Both the position numbers and the translations under genes were made by a program. DNA of 24,832 nucleotides. It comes from a virus. The stretch is taken from positions 1 through 24,832 of IMG/VR virus record IMGVR_UViG_3300006749_000116; one strand, given 5' to 3'. Under the pieces are notes generated by a model. It ran no database searches, was not told the origin of the DNA, and worked only from the letters and a program-made list of their open reading frames with translations. This document shows positions 529 to 13,873 of the stretch, piece by piece (position 1 is the first letter of the stretch; every line of letters starts with the position of its first letter).

Positions 529-1027
529 CACCGAAGCAATCGTAAACAAAGTCTTTGGTTTAAAGATGATTACAGAAACACGGCAACGCCCATATGTGGA
601 AGCTCGAGCTGCGTTTTACAAGATAATGAGAGATGTATATCACAAAAATTTGCAGACAATAGGTAAAAGAACTAACCGAACTCATGCAACTGTTATAAAT
701 GGCGTTGTAAATGCCGGGGATTGGGTAAAAATAGATCCCTCTTTTAAGGTTAAATACAAACAAGTTTTAGACTTAGTTGAGTCTTATAATAGGACTTTTA
801 AAACGTATACGCCTGAAGATGAATTAGCTGAAGAAAACATTTCCTTGAAGAAAAGAAATAAATTACTAACTTTACAACTCGAAGTGGTTAATAGAGAGAT
901 AGATACAATTAAACGAAAAGGACGTCCCTTTGAAGGTTTGTTTTGTAGAATAGAACATCAGTTTAAAGGAGACGAAGCGACCGCTAATGTTTTAATTAAT
1001 AAATTTTTAAATGGAATATCTGTTTGA
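512..1027 (+). CDS. DnaA domain IV-like DNA-binding protein with coiled-coil tail
   Basis: Residues about 9-92 resemble the C-terminal DNA-binding domain (domain IV) of the replication initiator DnaA: RQRPYVEARAAFYKIMRDVY corresponds to the basic 'variant helix', and IGKRTNRTHATVINGV (residues 50-65) to the signature that in DnaA reads DHTTV, the helix-turn-helix that reads DnaA boxes. There is no AAA+ ATPase domain, so it cannot act as a full initiator. Residues about 102-136 form a Lys/Glu-rich coiled coil, and a basic tail follows. It may bind host oriC-like boxes or a phage origin, or act as a regulator. It overlaps its neighbours by 17 bases on both sides. The fold call is good; the biological role is inferred. 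Confidence 0.72.
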   Translation: MKEWDNTEAIVNKVFGLKMITETRQRPYVEARAAFYKIMRDVYHKNLQTIGKRTNRTHATVINGVVNAGDWVKIDPSFKVKYKQVLDLVESYNRTFKTYTPEDELAEENISLKKRNKLLTLQLEVVNREIDTIKRKGRPFEGLFCRIEHQFKGDEATANVLINKFLNGISV

Positions 1028-1244
1028 GAACATCGATGATGTCATGGCCAAGAGATGGTGCAACAAGTGTAAGATTGATTACCTTTTGCGTGTTGACGCG
1101 ACCATGTACACAAATTTAGGGATTGACTCTTCCCAAGCTGATCGAGATAGAGTTAAGCGTAAGTCTAAAAAGATTTATAATAATATTAAAAAAATTGATA
1201 GGGAAATTGGAGAAAGATTCTTATCTTCAATGGATAAATTCTAA
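1011..1244 (+). CDS. Small unknown basic protein, 77 aa
   Basis: No family is recognised. The N-terminal part has one WCNKCK pair, which could be half of a metal site, but no second cysteine pair follows. The C-terminal half is highly charged and helical (ADRDRVKRKSKKIYNNIKKIDREIGERFL). The ATG at 1011 overlaps the end of the DnaA-like gene by 17 bases, the same spacing as the junction before it, which supports it as a coupled gene. Confidence 0.6.
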   Translation: MEYLFENIDDVMAKRWCNKCKIDYLLRVDATMYTNLGIDSSQADRDRVKRKSKKIYNNIKKIDREIGERFLSSMDKF

Positions 1245-1248
1245 GACA

Positions 1249-1434
1249 ATGCCCTTAAGCCATTTAGCTAGTCCTCAAGTCATTTACATCAATTCGTTGA
1301 TGCATGACTTGAACTCTTTAAATGACGACCTATATGAGGCTTTAATGGATGGCGAAGATGATCAGGCTCAAGACGTAGCCAAAAGTCTTGTAGATCGACT
1401 ACAAGATGTAATACAAACCCTAGAGCATGGGTAG
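1249..1434 (+). CDS. Small unknown acidic helical protein, 61 aa
   Basis: No family is recognised. The frame is open further upstream to an ATG at 1123, but that part overlaps the preceding gene almost completely and reads as a shadow. The ATG at 1249, four bases after the preceding stop, fits the operon spacing. The product is mostly a single acidic helical unit (NSLNDDLYEALMDGEDDQAQDVAKSLVDRLQDVI). Its end overlaps the metallophosphoesterase gene by 8 bases. Confidence 0.6.
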   Translation: MPLSHLASPQVIYINSLMHDLNSLNDDLYEALMDGEDDQAQDVAKSLVDRLQDVIQTLEHG

Positions 1435-2449
1435 GAAGTCTATTCGTTTACGACTTAAAGAAGATGAGCATAAGATAATTATGGAGCATCGTGCATTAAA
1501 AGAAGAGTGCGATGCGGTGGGAGTCCCCCTAGATAATGTAAATCACTATTGGTATAAAGGTAAAAGCTTTTCTCTTCATGTAAAAAATGGAGGGGTCTCT
1601 TACGAAAAAGTGCGTAAAAACTTACTAGAAGAGCTAAAAGCTTATGTTCCGGAATATAAAAAAATAACTAGAACAAAGTCACCAGATCCTCACTGCCTGG
1701 TTATTGACCCTGCAGATATACACATTGGTAAGCTATGTGAGTCTTTTGAGAGTGGCGAGGATTATAACTCTCAGATTGCAGTATCTAGAGTGATAGAAGG
1801 CGTGCAAGGAATACTTGACAAGTCTTCAGGCTTTAACATTGATAAGATAGTTTTTATTGGAGGTAACGACATATTACACATAGACACTCCTAAGAGATCA
1901 ACTACGGCTGGAACTCCCCAGGACACGGATGGTATGTGGTATAGTAATTTTCTTATTGCTAAGAAACTATATGTGGATGTAATAGAACACTTACTTGGAG
2001 TGGCTGATGTTCACTTTGTATACAACCCATCTAACCACGACTATACAAATGGATTCTTTTTAGCAGATGTTATTCAAAGCTGGTTTAGGAAGTGTCCAAA
2101 CATAAAGTTTGATTGCTCTATATCTCACAGAAAATATTTGCAGTACCATAAAAATTTAATAGGAACGACTCATGGTGATGGGGCAAAGGCTCAAGACTTG
2201 CCATTGCTAATGGCTCAAGAGTCTCCTAAGTATTGGTCTTCAACAAAACACCGATACGTGTATACCCACCACGTACATCACAAGGTGTCTAAAGATTACA
2301 TAGGGGTTACTGTAGAGAGCTTAAGAAGCCCTAGTGGGACTGACTCCTGGCACCATAGAAATGGATATCAACACGCACCAAAAGCCGTAGAGGGATTTAT
2401 TCATCATCCTCAACATGGTCAAGTTGCTAGATTAACTCACCTATTTTAA
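1427..2449 (+). CDS. Calcineurin-like metallophosphoesterase, 340 aa
   Basis: The metal-binding motifs of the calcineurin-like phosphoesterase superfamily appear in order: D97-x-H99 in IDPADIHIGK, G145-G-N-D148, N203-H204-D205 in PSNHDY (the GNHD position), H249 in GTTHGDG, and the final H-x-H in YTHHVHH (281-285). These residues form the two-metal centre. The N-terminal 80 residues are a charged helical extension with NHYWYKGKSFSLHVK, seen on phage members of this family, and are not part of the catalytic core. Phage members are usually annotated as metallophosphoesterases or DNA exonucleases. The nuclease and DnaA-like gene nearby suggest DNA processing, but the substrate is not shown. All key residues are present, so it should be active. 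Confidence 0.88.
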   Translation: MGRKSIRLRLKEDEHKIIMEHRALKEECDAVGVPLDNVNHYWYKGKSFSLHVKNGGVSYEKVRKNLLEELKAYVPEYKKITRTKSPDPHCLVIDPADIHIGKLCESFESGEDYNSQIAVSRVIEGVQGILDKSSGFNIDKIVFIGGNDILHIDTPKRSTTAGTPQDTDGMWYSNFLIAKKLYVDVIEHLLGVADVHFVYNPSNHDYTNGFFLADVIQSWFRKCPNIKFDCSISHRKYLQYHKNLIGTTHGDGAKAQDLPLLMAQESPKYWSSTKHRYVYTHHVHHKVSKDYIGVTVESLRSPSGTDSWHHRNGYQHAPKAVEGFIHHPQHGQVARLTHLF

Positions 2450-2450
2450 A

Positions 2451-2543
2451 ATGAAAAAAATATTTAACCTTATTATATTAATCGGAATTAATATATTGTT
2501 TTGGCTAGCGCTAATACGACTTTGCTCTAAAGTGTTTGAATAA
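2451..2543 (+). CDS. Short single-pass membrane peptide, 30 aa
   Basis: The frame begins with ATG one base after the preceding stop and encodes MKKIF, then a strongly hydrophobic stretch (NLIILIGINILFWLALI), then R-L-C-S-K-V-F-E. The two N-terminal lysines and a hydrophobic core of about 17 residues fit a small inner-membrane protein or a minimal signal-anchor. Similar tiny membrane peptides in phages include lysis and exclusion proteins, but nothing identifies this one. The tight spacing after the phosphoesterase supports translation. Confidence 0.45.
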   Translation: MKKIFNLIILIGINILFWLALIRLCSKVFE

Positions 2544-2557
2544 TTAAATTAAATAAA

Positions 2558-2704
2558 ATGGAAGAAGCAATTGATGCATTGTATCAGAGATACAAGACCT
2601 ATGGATATGTAAGAGACGAGGATGTGGATCTTTTAAAGAAAGTGTATAATGAACTTCACCCCAAGTCAAGCAACCCTATAAAGTACGTTCAGTCCACAAC
2701 ATGA
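2558..2704 (+). CDS. Small unknown protein, 48 aa
   Basis: No family is recognised. An ATG after an AT-rich leader (AAATTAAATAAA) opens a 48-codon frame with a helical, charged product (EEAIDALYQRYKTYGYVRDE, then LLKKVYNELHP). Its TGA at 2702-2704 overlaps the ATG of the next gene as ATGA, a typical translational-coupling junction, which is the main reason for calling both genes real. Confidence 0.5.
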   Translation: MEEAIDALYQRYKTYGYVRDEDVDLLKKVYNELHPKSSNPIKYVQSTT

Positions 2705-2865
2705 GATACGTTGTTAGGTATATGCTTTATAGACAAGTAGACCCTAAAGCTTATTGGGAAACCAGAGAAAAAACTTTTGAGGATAAAGAGGATGCCTCTA
2801 TGTTTATAAACAACATAAAAGAAAACGTAGCGGTGAAGAATATCACCACTCAGTTTGTTCCTTAA
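2701..2865 (+). CDS. Small unknown protein, 54 aa
   Basis: The gene starts in an ATGA overlap with the preceding one. The product begins RYVVRYMLYRQVDPKAYWE and has a later helix (EDKEDASMFINNIKENV) and a strand-like end (KNITTQFVP). The alternation of a strand, a helix and a strand suggests a small alpha/beta fold, but no family is recognised. Its TAA at 2863-2865 shares TTAA with the stop codon of the giant gene on the other strand, so the two convergent genes overlap by four bases. Confidence 0.5.
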   Translation: MRYVVRYMLYRQVDPKAYWETREKTFEDKEDASMFINNIKENVAVKNITTQFVP

Positions 2866-5800
2866 TTTTCTATAACGTACTCAGAATAGTTCAGTAAGCG
2901 AGCTACAGCCTCTCCGGTGTCTTCTACATCTCCAGTTAATAGCTTGTAATAGTTTTCTGCTAGTTTTTTTACATTTTTAGCTGGAATTCCACCGAGTTCT
3001 AATATTTGTATAATTAATTTTACAGTGTACTCTGAAGTTTTTTCAGGAGAAGAACTGTTTACAAGGGGAACTAGTGACCTTGTAAATATCTCTTCTATAG
3101 CCATAAAAGCAGAAAGGTTTTTCATTCGCCCTGCCCAAGGTTTGTTAAGATATAGGTCTTTAGCGGCAACAAATAAATCTCCCATCAAAAACAGAGAGTT
3201 TAAGTTTCCTAAAATTAATGCGATACCTAACTCTTCTAAGTCATCATCATCAAAGTCTGTTAGAAGACCTGGCATGCCTAGTGCAACATATTGAAAAACA
3301 GTTGGAATAGCACTATGATATATCGCTAATCTCCTCCAGTTTTCATATGCGCTACCTCGACCCGTTTTTCTAGCAATTTCTTTAGCCTCTTTAAATGACT
3401 TACCCTCTCTCATGGCTTTGCCTAGAGCCGCAGATTTTCTATACAACTGCCTAACGGCCATAATGCTTTTTCTATTTAAAGCCTTTGGCGCTGATAGGAA
3501 TAAAGACATAAGCCTAGTATACTGACCACTTGTCTGCCACCAATCTTTGTCTTCAATAGCGCTATTTTGTTGTGTGCTTGTAGCCTCATTGGTAGCCTTT
3601 CGAGAAGCATAATCAATTGCTTGTTGTTCAGTGGCGTTAGGATTTTTTTCTGCAAATTTTTCTTTGTAATACAAATAGTTAGATATACCTCCCATTATTC
3701 CTCCCATGTCACCCTTTTTTACTAGGTACATCAAGGCGTTTTGAGCTTTAGAAATTTGATCTTTGCTAATTGATATATTTTTGCCCAGAAAAAAACTAAA
3801 TGATGGGTCATCACTAATAGTGTCATAATTATAGCCCTCTAAAACATTTGCTATAGAAGAAAACTCATACCTAGCCTGCAACACTGGAGAGTTGTCGTAC
3901 CACTCATTCCATAACTTTTTAGCATTTGGAGCAGCTTTAACCCAGTATTTAACCCAATTTCTAACTCCAACATAATCCGCAAAAGCGAAGGCAGAAGTTA
4001 ACTGTTTTACAAAAACGGTAGGATTTATACCTAGTTTGGCGCTAACAAAAGCTCCATTTAATTGATTTAATAAATCTATTTCTCCACTTTTTATACCTCT
4101 AGTGCTAAGTTTATTTAGCATGTCCGTAACAAGCTTGTAAGTTTCTTTCCCTGTGTTTTCCTCTATAGCTAGTCTAACATACTTATTATTAAATACGGTA
4201 CTAATTTCTTTTAAAGTTTCAGCATAAGCTCTAAAGTATTCCATGTCAGTAACATAGACACTTAAAGCTTTATCTCCATCTACTCTTAATATAGGGTTGT
4301 TATTTTTTACTCTTTCTTTTGTTGATTGACCTCCTATGCTGCTTCTATATTGAAGTTGACTTTTTAATAAATCAATCTGAACTTCTTTCTGATCAACATC
4401 TCTATAAAGTCTGCCTGCATAAAACTGATTCCATGGCATATTAGCACGATATATTCTTTTATATACATCGTTATAGTCATTGTATAGTGAAGGGAAGAAA
4501 ACATTAACTTGCCAATCTGCCCAAGCCTTAGTTTCGTCATCCAATAAATTAATTAAACCCTCCATTGTTTTAGCATAATTTTCACCATACATGGCTTTAA
4601 AAGCTGGTATATTCGCAGGGTCTTTATATTGATTGTATAAATAATATATTTGATTCTTACTTAATTGTATTTCTAAATCCCCTAGCTCACTAATTAATTT
4701 TCTTTTCTTTGTTTCGTTTTTTTCTTTTGATATCTTAAGTTTAATATCTTGTGCTTTTTGAGGATTAACATAAAGTCTCGTTGTTATTCCAGCTTTATTT
4801 TTTTCCATTTTAGAGATATAGTCTTTGCCAAAAATGCGTTTAGCATTATCATCAATCATTTTTGTGACTAATAATTTTCTTCTAGTAAACTCAGAAGTTG
4901 AATCCTTTACCCTATATGTAATCATCTCTTGAAAACGACCCCCTATCATTTCTCCAGGAATACGTGTTATTTTACCTACAAGGCCCTCCAAGGCGTTGTG
5001 TCTTGAAAAATATGTTTCTAAGCCCGTGAATGCTCTTTTGAATGCAGATAAAAATTTATTTCTACTTTTATTTTTATTTTGAGTTTTATTTGACGAATCA
5101 ATTTTCCATTGAGCCCTTTCTTCTTCTGTCTCTGGAATGTTTTGTCCTCCAGAAACATTATAAAAAGCTTCAGCAATCATGTTATTAACTCTTTGCTTAT
5201 AAGCATTTAACTCTTCTTTGTTTTCAGACTTTCCTCTCAAAACATACTTTTGCAACAATACTAAAACATTACTAAGAGCCTTTACTTTTAAAGGGTCTTT
5301 GTTTTCCATCATCTTAGCTGAGTTAAGCTCTATGGCGATTTGTAAAATCTCTAAACGATCTAAATCTTTTTGAGATAGCTCTTCAGCGGGAACCTTGCTT
5401 TTATCAATCGTTCTTTCTTGAGTTCGGCTCATTATATCTTCAAACTCTCGACGTTGTGCATCTATGGTGTCTTGAATTTTTTGCTCAGCCATGTTGTCAT
5501 CGACAATCATTCTCTTTAATTCAGCAAAACTATCTTGAAAAGAAGGTAAAAATCCTTTACCTTTAGTTCTTCCTGACTCTTTCTTTTGTGTTTTGGTGCT
5601 AAGTAATTTATTTATTTTACTTTCCACTTGAGAAGACTGAGCCTCTGAAACGTAACCAACAACCTTAGCCATAACCTCATCAATGTTTGTAGATCTAGAT
5701 TTTGGATCTACCTTTATGTCAGTAATAGCTTTTAACAATCTATTAACCTCGGGCTTATTGTAATCAATAGAGGGAAGATTTTGTCTAATAAAAGACCTTA

Positions 5801-8800
5801 GCATCATTTGCATTTCTTTAATGCCAGCCCTTCCTTTAGATCTTTCAGAAAGCATAGCCCTTAAGACTCTAAAGTTTTCTATAAACATTTTAGACCCGTA
5901 AGTTCCGACTTGACCGCTTATAATTCTGTCTAGGTCCAGCTTCATCTGGGCTTGCATCTCTTCGCTTTCATTCTTGTAGTCAGAATTTTTTTCTAGAGTT
6001 TCTATAGCTATTTTCCTAACGGCTTCTCTTTCTTTTTTACTTTCAGCAGTTAGCTTTTTAATTTGTGCTTCAGACAATCTTTTTGGTTTTGTCTCAAACA
6101 TTCTACTATAGCTACTTCTTTTAAGAACAACTTGCTCGGTAACCTCCGTCATTATGTCTACAAGTAATCTTTTGCCAGAGATAACGCCTCCTTTTACATT
6201 AGCAAAAGAGCTTGGCAATTCTACAGACCTGCCTATTTCTAAGTCTAATACTTGTTTTATTTTTTCTTTAGCAGTCTTTTTTAAACCTCTGACTCTAGTA
6301 TGAAACTTAGATTTATAAAAGGCTTTGGAAAGTATTGAAGGAAAGGAAAGACTAACTATCTTTTCACGCTTCATGGCTTCATTAATATCTGCTATTGAAT
6401 ACTTTTTTTCCTTAAGAAATGCTTTAATTGTGTTGTCTTTATATCCAGCAAACCTAGCCTGTGCTACTTTTTGAAATAGATTAGTTTCTGAATCAGTTTC
6501 TATTTCCTCAAGTTGTTGCCTTGGAGATATTTGTTGACTAGACTCAGAGGGTTTGGTTATAACAACTCCGGTCTTGCCAAATGTATTATCCTTGGTGACG
6601 GTAGCGTTATCTCCTAAAAGGTCTTGTACATAGTCTACAAGTTCATTGCCATCAAACCCCTTCTGATATTGTTGCTCACCACTAACCTCTATCAAATAAC
6701 TTTTTTCTTCGGGACCTGGCTCAAAGTTTTTAGCATTTGCCACATCGCCCTTAAAGCCTCTAGAGCTTATAACGGCAGTCCCTCCTTCATTAAGTTTTTC
6801 AAAAATATCTGTAACAATAAAGTCTCTGACATTCTTAGGAACGACATTCACTACATTAAGAGAAACAATAGAATCATATTTTTTATCTATGTCTTTAGCA
6901 CTAGTGTAAGTAGGCTTTGCTTTACCTTTCCACCTTTCAGTATTAATTTCAAAAGAATCAACCTTACGGCCTAACAGTTTTGTCATGGCATCTGTTCCAA
7001 CGCCAAGACCAGCGCCATAGTCTAACACTTCGCCCTCTATTTCTCGGTCTTTAATTATGTTAGCGGCTTTGATGTAGCTACCTCTAGTGTTCTCTCTCTG
7101 CGTTCTACCAGAGGCTTTAGATAAACTATCGTCAATTTGTTGACGATTAGCTACAACTCCTTCGCCACTTGCTTCATTAACAATATTATCTGCTCTAGAG
7201 ATGGCATCTTGCCTTCTCTCTTCAGCCTTTGTGAGGTCTGCTCCAGCTTTTGAAAATCTTTTTTTTGTTTCTTCATCTGTTTCTATTTCGTTATTTAATT
7301 TATTTACTGCTGTAACGTAGCTAAAACTTGGAGACACCTTTCCAGCCTTAGTCCAAAGTTCTTGTTCAAAATACCATATAACTGCTTGAAGTTCACTTAC
7401 ACTAAGATTTAATTTATTAGCCGCCAAAGTTACGGCTTTACGCATAATATCACGCTCTCTATCTGTCCTTGGTGTTTCTTGAATATTTCTTTCTCCTTTT
7501 ACAGTAGATAACATTGTACCCATATATCTATTCCAAGTACGACTCCACCATAAATCCATAGTGATTGTATCTCCAATACCAATCATATTTTGATAGAAAG
7601 CACCAATTTTTTCACCAAAAATAAATGCTCCATTACGCTTACCAACAGCTATTATTCTTGTGTTTCCATCAACGTCAGGAACTCCCTTGTTGTATTTTCT
7701 AAGTTCAGATACAGGTTGAGTTTTTTCAAAGAACGCAATAAGTTTATTAATGTCTTTACCTACAGATTTGTAAACCTTTTCTATCTTGGTTAGTTGTTGC
7801 GCCACAATATTACCTCTAGATGTAAATCCCGCTGGCTTGGGATATCCTTTTTTTAATTGTGATTTTTTAGCTTCAAATAGTTTTGGTGTTCCATTTTTAA
7901 ACGTCTCTGGATTTCCTAAAGCATCTACGCTTTGTACTATATATTTGGTTTTAGTTTCTCGAACCACAACGCCTGTACCTAAAGCCACGCCTTTTTTAGT
8001 AATAAAAGAAATTTTATCTTCCCCCCAGTTTTTAGCAAAATTTACGGCATCTCCGTTAGAGCGAATCCACAGAGTATATGCTGTCTTTAGGTTTTGGTTA
8101 GGGTTTGTTCCCGAAGAAGTGATTGCAAGAACTTGCTTGAACAACTTCATTTGATTGGGGTCTTCAAGCTCAGGCAATAAAACTTTCATTTTGTTTTCAA
8201 ACTCAGTAATGTCTTCCATGTACCAAGTCATACCCGAATCTCTTGCTCCTTTATTTAATGTATACAAAGACTCTTCAAATATGTTTTCTAAAAATCTAGA
8301 TATTAAATCTTGCTCAGAAGAATTTGGAGTCAACTCTGATTTTGCAAAGCCATTTAATATGTCTGCTACAACTATTTTTGTTGCATTTTTTTTAGGTGTT
8401 TCAACTCCTATAATATCTAAAGCTTCTTTTTGTTGCCTATTTGTTATTTTGCTTTTAGAATCTTTTTGTTCTTGCTTTAGTGATTGAACATCTTCTGCAA
8501 CAATCTCTTCACCAGTAGACACCTTGCGTGTCAGAATATTAATTAAGTCTATTACACTTTCATCAGTCTTGCCAAATGTTGCCTCAAGCTTAATGCCTAT
8601 TTTTTTAGCAATTTTTTTAAAAAACTCTATAATAGAATTCTTTGCTGGTTTAGGAAGTTCACTAAAGCCAAACTCTTCAGATGATAATAGACCAACTAAC
8701 TCTGCAAGAAATTCTTCATCTTGAATTCCAGATTTATATTTTTCGCTAAACTTCTTTACTCTTTTAGCCAAGGCGCTATCTTTCGGTAGGCTCTTTCCAA

Positions 8801-11800
8801 CCGACTTAACCATATCGGCAGCGATTTTTTGTAGTTCCTTAGAGTCTTTTACCTTGTCGATAAAGACCGCATGAAAAACCTCATGAGCAATTGTAGACCC
8901 CGTAGCCTTAGTTAAGTTAATATGAATAGTGTTTTTTGAAGGAATAAACTCACCTCTTCCACTTCTGCCTACCGCTAAAAGATAAGAGTCCTCGTTGTTG
9001 TGCAATATAATTTTAGTATTGGGTAGGATTTTTCTTATAGATCGAATAGCGGACTTTCCTCTTTTTATTAAAGAGGTTCGTTTTTTTCTTTCAGTAATTG
9101 GCAACTGAGACTCAGCGCCCTTTAAAAATAAATTGCCTTCAAGGTTAGTTCCTTCACTTTGAGTGTCTTCACTAACCTCAGCAAACTCTTCTCTAATGTC
9201 TTCTAACTCTTGAGCTTCAATTTCTTGAGGGCTTAACCCTGGCTCCGCAACCTCCTCTTCTGTAACTTCCTGAATCTGCGCCCCGCCATCAAGCTCTTGA
9301 GCTTCTTGGGGTGTAATCTCTTCGGTAGTAACTTGTTCGCTGGTGTCTCCTTCTCGAACTCCTTCGCTAACTCCGGCTTGTTCTTGTACATCCACCTCCT
9401 CTGTGCTTGACTCTTGAATGGCATCGTCTTCTTCTTTAACTGTTAATGATTCTTTTGTTTTTTCATCTAAAACGCTTTGAGGCGTAATTTCTTTATTAAT
9501 TAATTTTCGGATCTGATCCTCTAAAGTTTTTTTCTTTTCAGCGTCTATTGACACACCCAAAACCTCACTCTCTTCCTTTAATGATTTAAGGTCTTGTTTT
9601 AGCACAGATAAAACAGATACATATGAATTTTTTTCTTTAGCCTTCATGTTTTTAAACTCAGGCTTATTATCAATTATCTCTTTAACTTCTTTAACGCTAC
9701 TTAAATTATCTAATATCTCAGATTCTTGCTCAGGTGTCATCTTGCCTAACCTTCGCATATTGTAAACCCAAGACTGTATTTTTTCTCCAGAAATGTTATC
9801 AAGTTCTGAAGCCATGAAGCTTGTACTAGTTAAGTCGTTTGCTAGTTTATCATTCGCTTTGCCTGTAGCAATTCCATAAACATCTAAAGCTATGTTGGGA
9901 ATGTTTGTTCCAGCCCCTCCTATTATTTCAGCAACGGTCTCTTGAAGACTAAACCCTTGTCCAGCAACCGCTTGAGCTAAAACTTCTCCCGACCCCTCTT
10001 GTGCAGGTCCGATGATAACTTGAGAACCTAAAGCCGTTCCAACTAAACGACCTCGTGAGATAGTGCTATACCTTAAGCCTTTAAGTGCTTTACTCATTAA
10101 AGTACCACCAGCCAAGTCCACTCCAGATATTGCAATAGCCCTTGGTATTCCAACCCTATCTGCCTTATCCCAAACCTCTTCATCTTGCATTGCATTTAGC
10201 ATATCATCGGGATTAGATAAGTCGTAACCCTTTTCTCCTGCCGCTTCAAAAAACGCATTACCATACTCCACAATACCATTGGCTGCAGAAAAAGATGTAA
10301 TCACACCACTAGTTAGTCCAGCGCCAGCACCAGGAAGGCCTCCCCTAGCGGCTCCAATACCAATTTGCGCTAAAGTGTTTGCGACTCCAAAACGAAGACC
10401 CGCAGGTAACATCATAGCAAGACTTTCTCCCATGAAAGAAGCCATGTATCCAATAGGGTTGTTTAATATTGCAGTCTTTAATTCATTTGCAGACTTAGAT
10501 TGCTGAAACCTAGTCATGAGACGAGAAGTGGGAAGTTTAGATTGCTCTTCAAAATTTTTAGCCATCTCCTCAATAACCTCTTCTTTAGAAGAACCTGGAG
10601 TGCCTAGCATAACTGAAAATAATCCAACAATAGAATTACCCATTTTAGCACCACCTCTAATGGCGTTTAAAGTAGCCTTGTATCCATCTTCATACTCGCC
10701 ATTTAAACTCTTGTTGTGTTGACGATTATAATAAAGCATGGACTTCTCATATTCCTTAGCTGCTAAATTAGATGTAGAGAGAGATGAATTAAATTCTTTG
10801 ATTAGCCTTTCTAGTATTACAGAATCTTCTTCTGAAATAGTCCTTTGTCCTTTTTCTAGCTCAGACAAAACGCTAAATAAGTCTTTTCCAAAAATCCTTA
10901 CAGACTCTTTTTCTACCTCCTTAATAATATCTTTTGCCTCTTTGTTGTAAGCTGCGGCTTGACTGCTTCTTTCTTTTCTTTTGGAAACCAAATACTCATC
11001 AAGGTCTTCTCTTAGCCTCTGGTTACTTTTGTCTTTTATAGTCGCTCTTAAAGGAGCACCTTTTGCTACCGTATACACAGATTCGCCTTTAGAGTCTACG
11101 ATAAGCTTACTTATTTTATCAAACTCTTTTTGTTCGAGTTCGCTAAAGTCTGTAAAAGAAGGCAATCCTTGGCTATTAAAAAACTGAGGATACTTTTCTT
11201 TTATTTCTAACAACCTTTCGTCCTCTGTAATCTCTAGACCTGTACCTGTCATGGTCTGAGAATATTTGTTTATAATTTCATTAACCTCTTCAACCGCTAA
11301 CTTTTTATTTAAAAGCTCGTCGTATCTCAACTCTAAAGCTCTAACCTCATCATAGTCTACGCCTCTGTCCTCATAAAATTTTCTTGTCTCTTTTTCTATC
11401 TCAGGGTCTAAATCGCCCGATAACCTTTCTATTGTTTGATCATCAATTAATGGCGTTATATCTTTTTCACCAATTTCAGTTTGCCTTTCACCGCTTAATT
11501 GTTTCAATGTAGTAAAAGGGCCTTCCCCAACCACATCCTCTGTTTCAGAAGATATGCTCGTAAGCTTTCCATCGACCTTTCTTTGCGTGCCAAAAGGCGT
11601 AGACTCTAAGCCCTCTTTTGGAATATTTATATCTCCAACAAAATCTTCACCTTGATTCTCTGCGGGGGTAATGGTTTCTTTGGGAAAGCTAACTTCTCCA
11701 ACCATAGCCTCTGTTGTAGGAGATATGCTTGTAAGTTCACCATCAACCCTTGTTTTAACCCCAAAGGGGGTAGATTCTAGACCATCTTGTGGAATGTTTA

Positions 11801-12065
11801 CATCGCCAACAAATTCTTCAACTTCACCTTCTGCAAAGCCCGAAGAACCATCCTCTGAAATAGATTCCGTAACGATTTCTTCTTTTTTTTTTAAAACAAA
11901 ATCTTCTGCCCTTCCAACATCATAACCTTCATTTACTAAAAAAGAATGAAGTTCATTTCTTTTACTTTCGTCCTGCAAGGATGAGGTGAAATTATCAAAA
12001 CTCCCTAAATCGTAGCCTTCTTTAGTAAAGAAGTCAAATAGCTCTTGAGCTTTTATTTCATTCAT
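2862..12065 (-). CDS. Giant polyvalent virion protein with metallopeptidase and methyltransferase domains, 3067 aa
   Basis: This is probably a protein packaged in the virion and delivered with the DNA. Residues 8-56 hold two 30-residue EGYDxG...DF helical repeats; 83-184 a 57-residue tandem duplication; about 465-705 Gly/Ala-rich hydrophobic segments of ejection-protein type; about 870-975 a Glu-rich linker. A zincin metallopeptidase follows, with HEVFH at 1061-1065 and a probable third ligand E1122 in EEFLAE. Residues about 1260-1590 contain conserved-looking WWSRTWNRYMG and LQAVIWYFEQELW motifs of unnamed phage type. A class I SAM methyltransferase (about 1660-1825) has D1682-Y-G-A-G-L-G, an acidic loop FEIN and YDSIVSLNVVNVV. 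The rest is helical, ending with hydrophobic helices around an acidic DFDDDD. This mosaic matches the 'polyvalent proteins' described for phages. It is the last gene of the late region, 11 bases after the preceding gene. Length, domain mix and context are clear; the individual roles are inferred. Confidence 0.88.
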   Translation of the reverse strand: MNEIKAQELFDFFTKEGYDLGSFDNFTSSLQDESKRNELHSFLVNEGYDVGRAEDFVLKKKEEIVTESISEDGSSGFAEGEVEEFVGDVNIPQDGLESTPFGVKTRVDGELTSISPTTEAMVGEVSFPKETITPAENQGEDFVGDINIPKEGLESTPFGTQRKVDGKLTSISSETEDVVGEGPFTTLKQLSGERQTEIGEKDITPLIDDQTIERLSGDLDPEIEKETRKFYEDRGVDYDEVRALELRYDELLNKKLAVEEVNEIINKYSQTMTGTGLEITEDERLLEIKEKYPQFFNSQGLPSFTDFSELEQKEFDKISKLIVDSKGESVYTVAKGAPLRATIKDKSNQRLREDLDEYLVSKRKERSSQAAAYNKEAKDIIKEVEKESVRIFGKDLFSVLSELEKGQRTISEEDSVILERLIKEFNSSLSTSNLAAKEYEKSMLYYNRQHNKSLNGEYEDGYKATLNAIRGGAKMGNSIVGLFSVMLGTPGSSKEEVIEEMAKNFEEQSKLPTSRLMTRFQQSKSANELKTAILNNPIGYMASFMGESLAMMLPAGLRFGVANTLAQIGIGAARGGLPGAGAGLTSGVITSFSAANGIVEYGNAFFEAAGEKGYDLSNPDDMLNAMQDEEVWDKADRVGIPRAIAISGVDLAGGTLMSKALKGLRYSTISRGRLVGTALGSQVIIGPAQEGSGEVLAQAVAGQGFSLQETVAEIIGGAGTNIPNIALDVYGIATGKANDKLANDLTSTSFMASELDNISGEKIQSWVYNMRRLGKMTPEQESEILDNLSSVKEVKEIIDNKPEFKNMKAKEKNSYVSVLSVLKQDLKSLKEESEVLGVSIDAEKKKTLEDQIRKLINKEITPQSVLDEKTKESLTVKEEDDAIQESSTEEVDVQEQAGVSEGVREGDTSEQVTTEEITPQEAQELDGGAQIQEVTEEEVAEPGLSPQEIEAQELEDIREEFAEVSEDTQSEGTNLEGNLFLKGAESQLPITERKKRTSLIKRGKSAIRSIRKILPNTKIILHNNEDSYLLAVGRSGRGEFIPSKNTIHINLTKATGSTIAHEVFHAVFIDKVKDSKELQKIAADMVKSVGKSLPKDSALAKRVKKFSEKYKSGIQDEEFLAELVGLLSSEEFGFSELPKPAKNSIIEFFKKIAKKIGIKLEATFGKTDESVIDLINILTRKVSTGEEIVAEDVQSLKQEQKDSKSKITNRQQKEALDIIGVETPKKNATKIVVADILNGFAKSELTPNSSEQDLISRFLENIFEESLYTLNKGARDSGMTWYMEDITEFENKMKVLLPELEDPNQMKLFKQVLAITSSGTNPNQNLKTAYTLWIRSNGDAVNFAKNWGEDKISFITKKGVALGTGVVVRETKTKYIVQSVDALGNPETFKNGTPKLFEAKKSQLKKGYPKPAGFTSRGNIVAQQLTKIEKVYKSVGKDINKLIAFFEKTQPVSELRKYNKGVPDVDGNTRIIAVGKRNGAFIFGEKIGAFYQNMIGIGDTITMDLWWSRTWNRYMGTMLSTVKGERNIQETPRTDRERDIMRKAVTLAANKLNLSVSELQAVIWYFEQELWTKAGKVSPSFSYVTAVNKLNNEIETDEETKKRFSKAGADLTKAEERRQDAISRADNIVNEASGEGVVANRQQIDDSLSKASGRTQRENTRGSYIKAANIIKDREIEGEVLDYGAGLGVGTDAMTKLLGRKVDSFEINTERWKGKAKPTYTSAKDIDKKYDSIVSLNVVNVVPKNVRDFIVTDIFEKLNEGGTAVISSRGFKGDVANAKNFEPGPEEKSYLIEVSGEQQYQKGFDGNELVDYVQDLLGDNATVTKDNTFGKTGVVITKPSESSQQISPRQQLEEIETDSETNLFQKVAQARFAGYKDNTIKAFLKEKKYSIADINEAMKREKIVSLSFPSILSKAFYKSKFHTRVRGLKKTAKEKIKQVLDLEIGRSVELPSSFANVKGGVISGKRLLVDIMTEVTEQVVLKRSSYSRMFETKPKRLSEAQIKKLTAESKKEREAVRKIAIETLEKNSDYKNESEEMQAQMKLDLDRIISGQVGTYGSKMFIENFRVLRAMLSERSKGRAGIKEMQMMLRSFIRQNLPSIDYNKPEVNRLLKAITDIKVDPKSRSTNIDEVMAKVVGYVSEAQSSQVESKINKLLSTKTQKKESGRTKGKGFLPSFQDSFAELKRMIVDDNMAEQKIQDTIDAQRREFEDIMSRTQERTIDKSKVPAEELSQKDLDRLEILQIAIELNSAKMMENKDPLKVKALSNVLVLLQKYVLRGKSENKEELNAYKQRVNNMIAEAFYNVSGGQNIPETEEERAQWKIDSSNKTQNKNKSRNKFLSAFKRAFTGLETYFSRHNALEGLVGKITRIPGEMIGGRFQEMITYRVKDSTSEFTRRKLLVTKMIDDNAKRIFGKDYISKMEKNKAGITTRLYVNPQKAQDIKLKISKEKNETKKRKLISELGDLEIQLSKNQIYYLYNQYKDPANIPAFKAMYGENYAKTMEGLINLLDDETKAWADWQVNVFFPSLYNDYNDVYKRIYRANMPWNQFYAGRLYRDVDQKEVQIDLLKSQLQYRSSIGGQSTKERVKNNNPILRVDGDKALSVYVTDMEYFRAYAETLKEISTVFNNKYVRLAIEENTGKETYKLVTDMLNKLSTRGIKSGEIDLLNQLNGAFVSAKLGINPTVFVKQLTSAFAFADYVGVRNWVKYWVKAAPNAKKLWNEWYDNSPVLQARYEFSSIANVLEGYNYDTISDDPSFSFFLGKNISISKDQISKAQNALMYLVKKGDMGGIMGGISNYLYYKEKFAEKNPNATEQQAIDYASRKATNEATSTQQNSAIEDKDWWQTSGQYTRLMSLFLSAPKALNRKSIMAVRQLYRKSAALGKAMREGKSFKEAKEIARKTGRGSAYENWRRLAIYHSAIPTVFQYVALGMPGLLTDFDDDDLEELGIALILGNLNSLFLMGDLFVAAKDLYLNKPWAGRMKNLSAFMAIEEIFTRSLVPLVNSSSPEKTSEYTVKLIIQILELGGIPAKNVKKLAENYYKLLTGDVEDTGEAVARLLNYSEYVIEN
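9233..9424 (-). CDS. Overprinted small basic phage protein (MPFKS-AQRR type), 63 aa
   Basis: This frame lies entirely inside the giant gene, on the same strand but shifted in frame, over codons about 881-944. Checked codon by codon, it reads MPFKSQAQRRWMYKNKPELA and continues K-E-F-E-K-E-T-P. That is the recognisable start of a widespread small phage protein family (MPFKSxAQRRxMYxxxPexAkxfexxTP), usually about 50-70 aa and of unknown function. The expected LP(K/E) motif follows (KLLPKRL). The last 25 residues are extremely Lys/Arg-rich, which the Glu-rich codons of the host frame would produce by chance, so only about the first 37 residues carry real family signal. A purine-rich AAAGAAGAAGA precedes the ATG. 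The coincidence of start codon, motif and length argues strongly for a true gene. Confidence 0.75.
   Translation of the reverse strand: MPFKSQAQRRWMYKNKPELAKEFEKETPANKLLPKRLHPKKLKSLMAGRRFRKLQKRRLRSQG
11514..11819 (-). repeat. Tandem duplication within the giant gene
   Basis: Residues 83-127 and 140-184 of the giant protein are two copies of one 45-residue unit with a 57-residue (171-base) period. By direct alignment 30 of 45 residues match, including the block GLESTPFG, VDG and LTSIS. The first copy starts EEFVGDVNIP and the second EDFVGDINIP. The unit lies in an acidic, low-complexity N-terminal region before the hydrophobic part and looks like a recent in-frame duplication. Confidence 0.85.
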
Positions 12066-12076
12066 TGTTTACTTTT

Positions 12077-13873
12077 TTATTGCGATATTGGAGTTTTCTT
12101 TAGCTTTACTTTGTTTAACTCTTTTAAGTTTTTTAACGTAGTAGAATCTGTAACTACGCTTTCAATATCATTAATAGAAAGTTGTCTTCCATCTTCTGCA
12201 GCCGATTTAATTAAATCAATAAGGTTATAAACCTCAACTCTAGACTCGCGATATGTATCATATGGAAACTTGAGTTTTTCAATAACTCCAGGGAGAGAGA
12301 TAGTTAAAGTTCTACCTCTAAACCCTGGTATATATGGGCTTTCTGAAGAAACCTTCAAAACACCTTTATATTCGGCAGGTAAAGATTTTACGAGAATCTC
12401 CTCTGTGGCTTCACCTATGGCTCTTCTGCCAACACTATTAATATGTTCTTGTGGAGTTTTAGTCTCACCATCGACCTCTATTTCAATAGAAGCCAAAGGA
12501 ACTCCAGCGCCCTTTCGTCCTAGAGTTTTAGTTTCAATTAAGCTTCTAGGATTAGCCTTTGCGCCTGAAGCCACCCAATCATCATAAGCAACAGTAATAT
12601 CATCTACGTCAGATGGCAATAACTTAGTGCCTGCGGCAATAGTAAAGTCTTCAAATGTGCCATCTTTGGGTATTTGGTCTGTAGACCCATCTGGGTATGT
12701 AAGAAGAATTTCATCTTGTTTAACTTTAACTCTAGGAGCGTCTTCTCCTAGCCTTCCAAGAATAGAACCAAGTGCAGACTCAACGTCTACTTGTCCTCCC
12801 GAATATATTTTTTCTAATTCATTAATATATCCAATTCTCTTATTTTTTTTCAAAGCCAATCCTCTGTTGTATTGTCTGTCAGCAGAACTCTCTTCTCTGC
12901 CTGTTTGAACTTTCTCTATACTTGCACGTATTCTAGAACGGAGAATCTCTTCTGCATCAGTTTTTTGTTCTTCTGTAAGCTCAGGATTAAATATAGATGT
13001 TCCATCTTTTTTCATTAAGATTTTTTTAGGGTCATCTTTAGCGACTTTAGGATCGCTAGTATATGAATAACCCGCCTGTGCTAATATGTCTCCAGTTGTA
13101 ATATCTGAAACAAGAATACCATCTATTATATTTTTTTCTGCCTTTTGGTAATCTTTATTAAGCATAGCGCTTTTAATAGACTTAATGCCCCCTTGAGTTA
13201 GCGCAATGGTTGTAGGCTTTAATGTCTTTCCAGCGTCTATTACTGCCTGATCGATGTCTGGTCTATTAGCCCTATATCCCATTATTTGAGATAAGTTATT
13301 TACATCTAAAAGATCTTCGGGGTTGTTTGAAATCTTACCCGTTTCAGGGTCTCTTTTAGATATGTACATTCTGCCATTTACAGGGTTAACATATAAGGCT
13401 TGATTTTGAGCTCTATAAAACTTATTAAACATTTCGGTATTAAACTGCTCACTAGCGCCCGCCTCGTTATTTTGGACTCTCTTCAAAAGTTCATCTTGTT
13501 GTTCAGCTTGAGCCTTTGCTGCCTCAGCAAGCTGATCAACGCCATCATTTACAACCTGTCTTTGTTTTAAAAATTCTGAGGGTCGTAATCCGTTCCAGCC
13601 ACCTTTTTGCATTTCTGTCTGCTGCATCAATAAAAAATCACGGATTTGATCAGCGGCATCCATGTAAAATTCACCATTAAGCTTGTCTTGATTTGCCGCT
13701 AGCTTATTGATTTCATTGACATCCTCAATAGTTTGAAGTTCAATCTCCTGCCTTTCATCTTGCCTTCTCTTACTTTCTTTAGCTAAATCATCAGATAATT
13801 GACTTCCAATAGCTCCCCAATCCACGAAAGCCTTGTCGTCTCTTTTTACATATCCATAAAACGATTTTGCCAT
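12077..13873 (-). CDS. Internal virion / ejection-type protein, 598 aa
   Basis: It begins MAKSFYGYVKRDDKAFVDWG, a start I associate with internal or 'cargo' proteins of Bacteroidota podoviruses. Residues about 25-150 are charged, Gln/Glu-rich helices (SKRRQDERQEIELQTIEDVN, EAAKAQAEQQDELLKRVQNN). A more mixed alpha/beta part follows, with short strand-turn motifs such as VNPVNGRMYISKRD and RVKVKQDEILLTYPDGSTDQ. There is no signal peptide or membrane helix. It sits between the small Ala-rich ejection-type protein and the giant protein with only 11-16 bases of spacing, as in the T7 gp14-15-16 type arrangement. The role is therefore inferred from position and composition; no catalytic motif is visible. 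Confidence 0.6.
   Translation of the reverse strand: MAKSFYGYVKRDDKAFVDWGAIGSQLSDDLAKESKRRQDERQEIELQTIEDVNEINKLAANQDKLNGEFYMDAADQIRDFLLMQQTEMQKGGWNGLRPSEFLKQRQVVNDGVDQLAEAAKAQAEQQDELLKRVQNNEAGASEQFNTEMFNKFYRAQNQALYVNPVNGRMYISKRDPETGKISNNPEDLLDVNNLSQIMGYRANRPDIDQAVIDAGKTLKPTTIALTQGGIKSIKSAMLNKDYQKAEKNIIDGILVSDITTGDILAQAGYSYTSDPKVAKDDPKKILMKKDGTSIFNPELTEEQKTDAEEILRSRIRASIEKVQTGREESSADRQYNRGLALKKNKRIGYINELEKIYSGGQVDVESALGSILGRLGEDAPRVKVKQDEILLTYPDGSTDQIPKDGTFEDFTIAAGTKLLPSDVDDITVAYDDWVASGAKANPRSLIETKTLGRKGAGVPLASIEIEVDGETKTPQEHINSVGRRAIGEATEEILVKSLPAEYKGVLKVSSESPYIPGFRGRTLTISLPGVIEKLKFPYDTYRESRVEVYNLIDLIKSAAEDGRQLSINDIESVVTDSTTLKNLKELNKVKLKKTPISQ

Follow-up and report, generated by a model that had tools for sequence, protein, structure and literature searches.

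A conserved small gene lies within, or directly behind, a giant gene of marine flavobacterial phages

We analyzed a 24,832-nucleotide stretch of viral DNA (IMG/VR record IMGVR_UViG_3300006749_000116; hereafter the window) in which a small ORF on the minus strand, 9424 to 9233, encodes MPFKSQAQRRWMYKNKPELAKEFEKETPANKLLPKRLHPKKLKSLMAGRRFRKLQKRRLRSQG* and lies along its whole length within a giant ORF at an offset of +1 (Table 1). The small ORF begins with ATG and comprises 63 codons and a stop, confirming the original prediction of a complete out-of-frame gene inside the giant gene on the same strand, and the in-frame TAA seven codons upstream identifies ATG 9424 as its own start. The homolog of the giant in Elemovirus isolates is annotated as ‘structural protein’, and from this annotation and the gene order we infer that the giant is probably an ejection (internal virion) protein. 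N4 vRNAP and T7 gp16 are giant ejected virion proteins of podophages, and like them the window giant is a late protein of great length, encoded where the structural cluster ends. Unlike these two proteins, the window giant has no RNA polymerase or transglycosylase match and instead gives zincin-like and weak methyltransferase matches.

Table 1. Positions of the small gene, its start signals and surrounding features in the window
Feature	Position	Strand	Description
Nested small gene, MPFKS family	9233..9424	(-)	63 aa, in the giant's +1 frame; core, residues 1–37; K/R-rich tail, residues 38–63
Initiation context, -13 to -1	9425..9437	(-)	A at -13, -12, -11, -6, -5 and -3; no Shine-Dalgarno; fits Flavobacterium Kozak-like determinants
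In-frame TAA, seven codons 5′ of the small ATG	9443..9445	(-)	Seen in sequence; rules out a long N-terminal extension of the small ORF
Giant gene	2862..12065	(-)	3067 aa; homologs are giant ‘structural protein’ genes in Flavobacterium phages; several domains
Zincin-like (HExxH) domain of the giant	8460..9095	(-)	Just downstream of the nested gene; survey bait
598-aa protein gene	12077..13873	(-)	Immediately upstream of the giant; most homologous loci have an ORF of ~600 aa at that position

The original prediction took residues 1–37 as the N terminus of a small phage protein family and proposed searching them apart from the tail. Residues 1–37 match phrog_1375 (E=3.8e-4), which bears out this assignment and averts the refutation that a failed search would have brought, and the K/R-rich tail searched alone has no match. 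The window protein also has both defining features of the MPFKS family, an MPFKS-x-AQRRW-type motif at the start codon and a short, strongly basic product with a K/R-rich tail. Residues M1, P2, F3, S5, A7, Q8, R9 and P17 are invariant across 35 aligned members, and the nested copies have a median length of 53 aa and a net charge of +15, compared to 58 aa and +14 for free copies. phrog_1375 and the free-standing MPFKS/MPFKSEKQRR proteins, such as URG13095.1 of phage 023Pt_psg01 and FlowerPower gp48, share the N-terminal motif, size class and basicity of the nested ORF and are annotated as hypothetical proteins of unknown function; their genes are ordinary separate genes, whereas the window copy lies wholly within another coding frame. 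An AlphaFold2 model of the small protein, based on an alignment restricted to the window and the fetched loci, contains three helices (mean pLDDT 84, pTM 0.47), and its best fold matches are uncharacterized phage proteins. Comparison with solved structures in the Protein Data Bank by sequence and by fold returned chance matches only, a Pfam and NCBIfam search gave nothing above cut-off, and for the MPFKS family we found neither a solved structure nor a named function. The small product is predicted to be a short, strongly basic (net about +15) and, according to the model, helical protein.

At least 482 IMG/VR stretches encode relatives of the small ORF, the best of which, among the matches listed, are ~60–80% identical over 40–60 residues; a scan of genome contigs confirmed no relative. 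In the set formed by the window and the best 80 of these at least 482 relatives, 64 small ORFs are enclosed by a longer ORF with the same +1 offset. This sample was picked by similarity to the small ORF and is thus biased, and we repeated the survey without that bias. The giants' C-terminal alignment (A1) is too diverged for the purpose, and the zincin-like domain (A2) therefore served as sole bait to fetch 80 loci without reference to the small ORF. Some of these contigs are near-duplicates, and the counts refer to loci rather than lineages. The small ORF is nested in 37 of the 80 loci, always in the +1 frame and always with an ATG, and stands directly behind the giant in 19 loci, 18 times after the giant stop (gap ≤97 nt) and once after an interrupted giant. 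No locus among the 80 surveyed carries both a nested and a downstream copy. The small ORF is absent from 24 loci, 11 of which are cut off on the 3′ side, and a different ~48-aa basic protein (MPFKK...) occupies the downstream slot in 8 of the 13 3′-complete giants that lack it. Neither small family occurs near five 3′-complete giants in the 80-locus survey, indicating that a partner of this type is not universal. The ATG and open frame, the loss of which in close relatives that keep the giant would have counted against the gene, are retained in all nested loci and in the closest relatives among the matches listed (L001–L003).

The second tiny basic family, with the sequence MPFKKVGxNKNVSPSGKVFTDKQVKLYYATDGFKKSKL..., directly follows the giant stop at loci L140, L144, L145, L151, L152, L154 and L199, and an MPFKKVG-type protein follows a split giant at L155; in the surveyed loci this family is never nested and never occurs alongside an MPFKS ORF. 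Locus L146 encodes a third small basic ORF, MARLQVQTFFKKKAKVRRPGVVAKSKSSNLKTSKLYKKKYRGQGK, at +528 past the giant stop that is possibly another holder of the same role. One contig of 105,284 bases (G020; L116 and L117) carries two different giants, each with its own nested small ORF, reflecting either genomes joined in assembly or a real duplication. At L131 (G038), the giant ORF is broken after 1115 aa and followed by a 1035-aa ORF, a result of a frameshift or an assembly error.

Flavobacterium johnsoniae belongs to a phylum without Shine-Dalgarno sequences, and A at positions -3, -6, -12 and -13 are positive determinants of initiation in this organism (Baez et al., PMC6847099). The window small ATG has A at all four positions, and in a non-redundant set of 38 nested loci A is more frequent than in the same-phase background at -13, -12 and -11 (0.87–0.89), -6 (0.82), -5 (0.92) and -3 (0.68). 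This context bears on the possibility that ribosomes shift +1 out of the giant to make a truncated giant with an MPFKS tail and no separate small protein, as the constant +1 relation and the short slippage window left by an in-frame stop a few codons upstream would allow. However, the small ATG is invariant, falls at the same point as the start of the free genes and has an A-rich initiation context that is specific to it, and in several nested copies a stop codon directly precedes the ATG and makes a frameshift fusion impossible there. A frameshift product is accordingly very unlikely.

The small frame could instead be a shadow of the giant, with conserved giant amino acids and Glu-rich codons forcing the +1 text and no second protein made. 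Across 74 related pairs, giant codon positions 1/2/3 differ at.251/.162/.331 in the flank N-terminal to the small ORF and at.195/.135/.380 in the C-terminal flank, a normal coding pattern on both sides. The small core gives.258/.123/.104 and the small tail.38/.146/.234, with the greatest variability in both at the third position of the small frame. In this comparison of the nested ORF with flanking linker, which the original prediction had proposed as a check, the giant third position is most variable in the flanks and least variable in the core; the 74 pairs share ancestry, and we read the counts as a pattern and not as independent tests. As a null, we shuffled the giant codons synonymously with the amino acids kept (53 giants, 200 shuffles each). 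Acidic codons leave the +1 frame open with an ATG in 8.8% of draws (6 of 200 for the window), with K/R-rich text, so openness alone is weak evidence. Against the family HMM, the products of shuffling nevertheless never reach the scores of real copies: 1,060 shuffled products have a median of 4.0 and a maximum of 33.9 bits, whereas real copies have a minimum of 50.1 and a median of 74.4 bits. The HMM was built from members that include nested copies and thus favors the real ones, but the gap remains wide. This gap, the low variability of giant third positions in the core and the free-standing occurrence of the same protein leave a shadow even harder to credit than a frameshift. The earlier explanation of the K/R-rich tail by Glu-rich codons survives in part, in that shuffled acidic codons do yield such text, but the tail is not merely a shadow: free copies that overlap nothing share its type and charge, and its codon-position pattern tracks the small frame.

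Evidence for the outer frame comes from the free copies, which carry a median of 7 stops (range 2–14) in the giant-equivalent frame, mostly owing to A+T-rich codon pairs, TTT AAA for example, that create TAA. The codon for Phe3 is TTC before AA/AG in nested copies and TTT in 20 of 25 free copies. Nested copies are recognized by an open giant frame, so their lack of stops is in part a matter of definition, and the value of the free copies is to indicate which stops nested copies must avoid. The locus shows two marks of dual coding, an inner ORF complete within the outer ORF with a fixed frame relation and start, and selection on both frames, supported by the codon-position flip and shuffle null for the inner frame and by coding-like flanks and the stops in free copies for the outer frame. 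A degenerate passenger, inserted in the linker and no longer needed, is the least credible reading: some giants do lack the small gene altogether, but nested copies are conserved across strongly diverged giants and substitutions in the core fall mainly at the third position of the small frame. Comparative sequence analysis thus shows a conserved small gene with both frames kept, located in one of two mutually exclusive places, the linker or directly after the giant stop.

The N- and C-terminal parts of nested giants are colinear with giants whose acidic linker is empty and whose small gene follows the stop, most clearly for L132 compared to L122, and the small gene therefore shifts place relative to an otherwise intact giant. 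Fusion in place, in which an N-terminal gene, the small gene and a C-terminal gene were joined by stop loss, is not supported: in phages with the outside copy, the N- and C-terminal parts already form a single ORF, with the small gene past its end. The term ‘overprinted’ in the original prediction implies a young gene that arose inside an old one, which probably does not fit here. De novo overprinted genes (reviewed in PMC8227390) likewise give two proteins from one DNA stretch, but such an inner gene has no homologs outside the overlap, whereas free homologs of the small gene occur both in these phages and in unrelated ones. The inner member of a classical overprinted pair is the new arrival, but in the window that member comes from a wider family, and it is the outer frame that is probably new to this stretch. 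Because the small gene is a member of a wider phage family and exists free-standing, the overlap looks more likely to have arisen by relocation, with the giant's linker as the putative younger reading and the small gene as the older partner. A tree of the zincin-like domain requires at least four changes between nested and downstream placement; the tree is unrooted with many weak forks, and we claim no direction for these moves. In the frame that the giant needs, free copies contain many stops, and an inward move would therefore require many synonymous changes or recombination with a lineage in which the gene is already nested. A shift outward is simpler.

In L107 and L108 (G011, G012), the giant extends over 17 nt of the small gene in the +1 frame and ends at a TAA spanning Ser5–Lys6, a form that looks intermediate between adjacent and nested. 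In L124 (G027), an apparently unrelated phage, the end of a 127-aa ORF overlaps a free MPFKS gene in the +1 frame. Rz1-type genes are complete small genes nested out of frame in a larger phage gene. The window pair shares this layout with the lambda Rz/Rz1-type embedded spanin genes (PMC5295617, PMC6139136), but Rz1 is a lysis lipoprotein, whereas the window gene lies in a giant structural gene, encodes a basic protein and also occurs outside its host gene in sister phages.

Cultured phages carry the same arrangement. In Flavobacterium phage elemoF_6-3D (NC_055853.1), an unannotated ORF at 52379–52507 on the plus strand lies within the giant gene at 48718–59802; 68 Elemovirus records match, some of them RefSeq duplicates of GenBank records, and those listed annotate only the giant's ‘structural protein’ there. 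MW202828 has a small ORF inside the giant at 741–12320, and record MW202828.1 labels this giant ‘reticulocyte binding/rhoptry protein’, very likely a misannotation. Common gene callers disfavor nested genes, and the expectation that annotation would miss this one is met by the RefSeq records of cultured relatives, which lack it. The window major capsid protein is 47–69% identical to those of MW202828, Maribacter phage Panino and Elemovirus phages, from which we infer that a flavobacterial host is likely for the window phage. The unannotated small gene is carried by dozens of relatives, including many sequenced laboratory isolates, in a group of marine flavobacterial phages. A literature search found no report of such nesting, which is weak evidence given incomplete journal coverage.

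We estimate a probability of roughly 0.88 that the nested ORF is a real, translated and dual-coded gene, where translation is inferred without expression data and the estimate excludes any role as a partner of the giant. In the mechanism we propose, the 63-codon gene would be translated in the +1 frame from its own ATG, in the linker between the giant's N-terminal region and the zincin-like domain. Ribosomes would initiate within the late mRNA, at a site that is rich in A, independent of a Shine-Dalgarno sequence and typical of Flavobacteriia, and synthesis of the small basic helical protein would coincide in time and place with that of the giant. Linkage to one giant in two places and replacement by another tiny basic protein downstream suggest that the small protein is the giant's partner, perhaps an accessory that binds nucleic acid or the acidic linker and is packed with, or acts alongside, the ejection proteins, but this weaker inference remains tentative. 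Less likely again is the full account in which the giant depends on a tiny basic partner, encoded in the acidic linker or directly behind, that is co-made and binds the linker or DNA handled by the giant, and in which an older gene was swallowed whole by its neighbor's frame more than once. If true, dual coding would here have been reached via relocation and not via the emergence of a new gene. Several features make the case unusually clean: many diverged copies, sister phages that carry the gene outside, an empty linker for comparison and a cultured phage–host pair, an Elemovirus phage with Flavobacterium sp. BAL314, in which translation could be tested. An overlap with an older-looking inner gene runs against the usual account of the inner gene as newcomer and suggests a broader hunt for nested copies of known small phage families.
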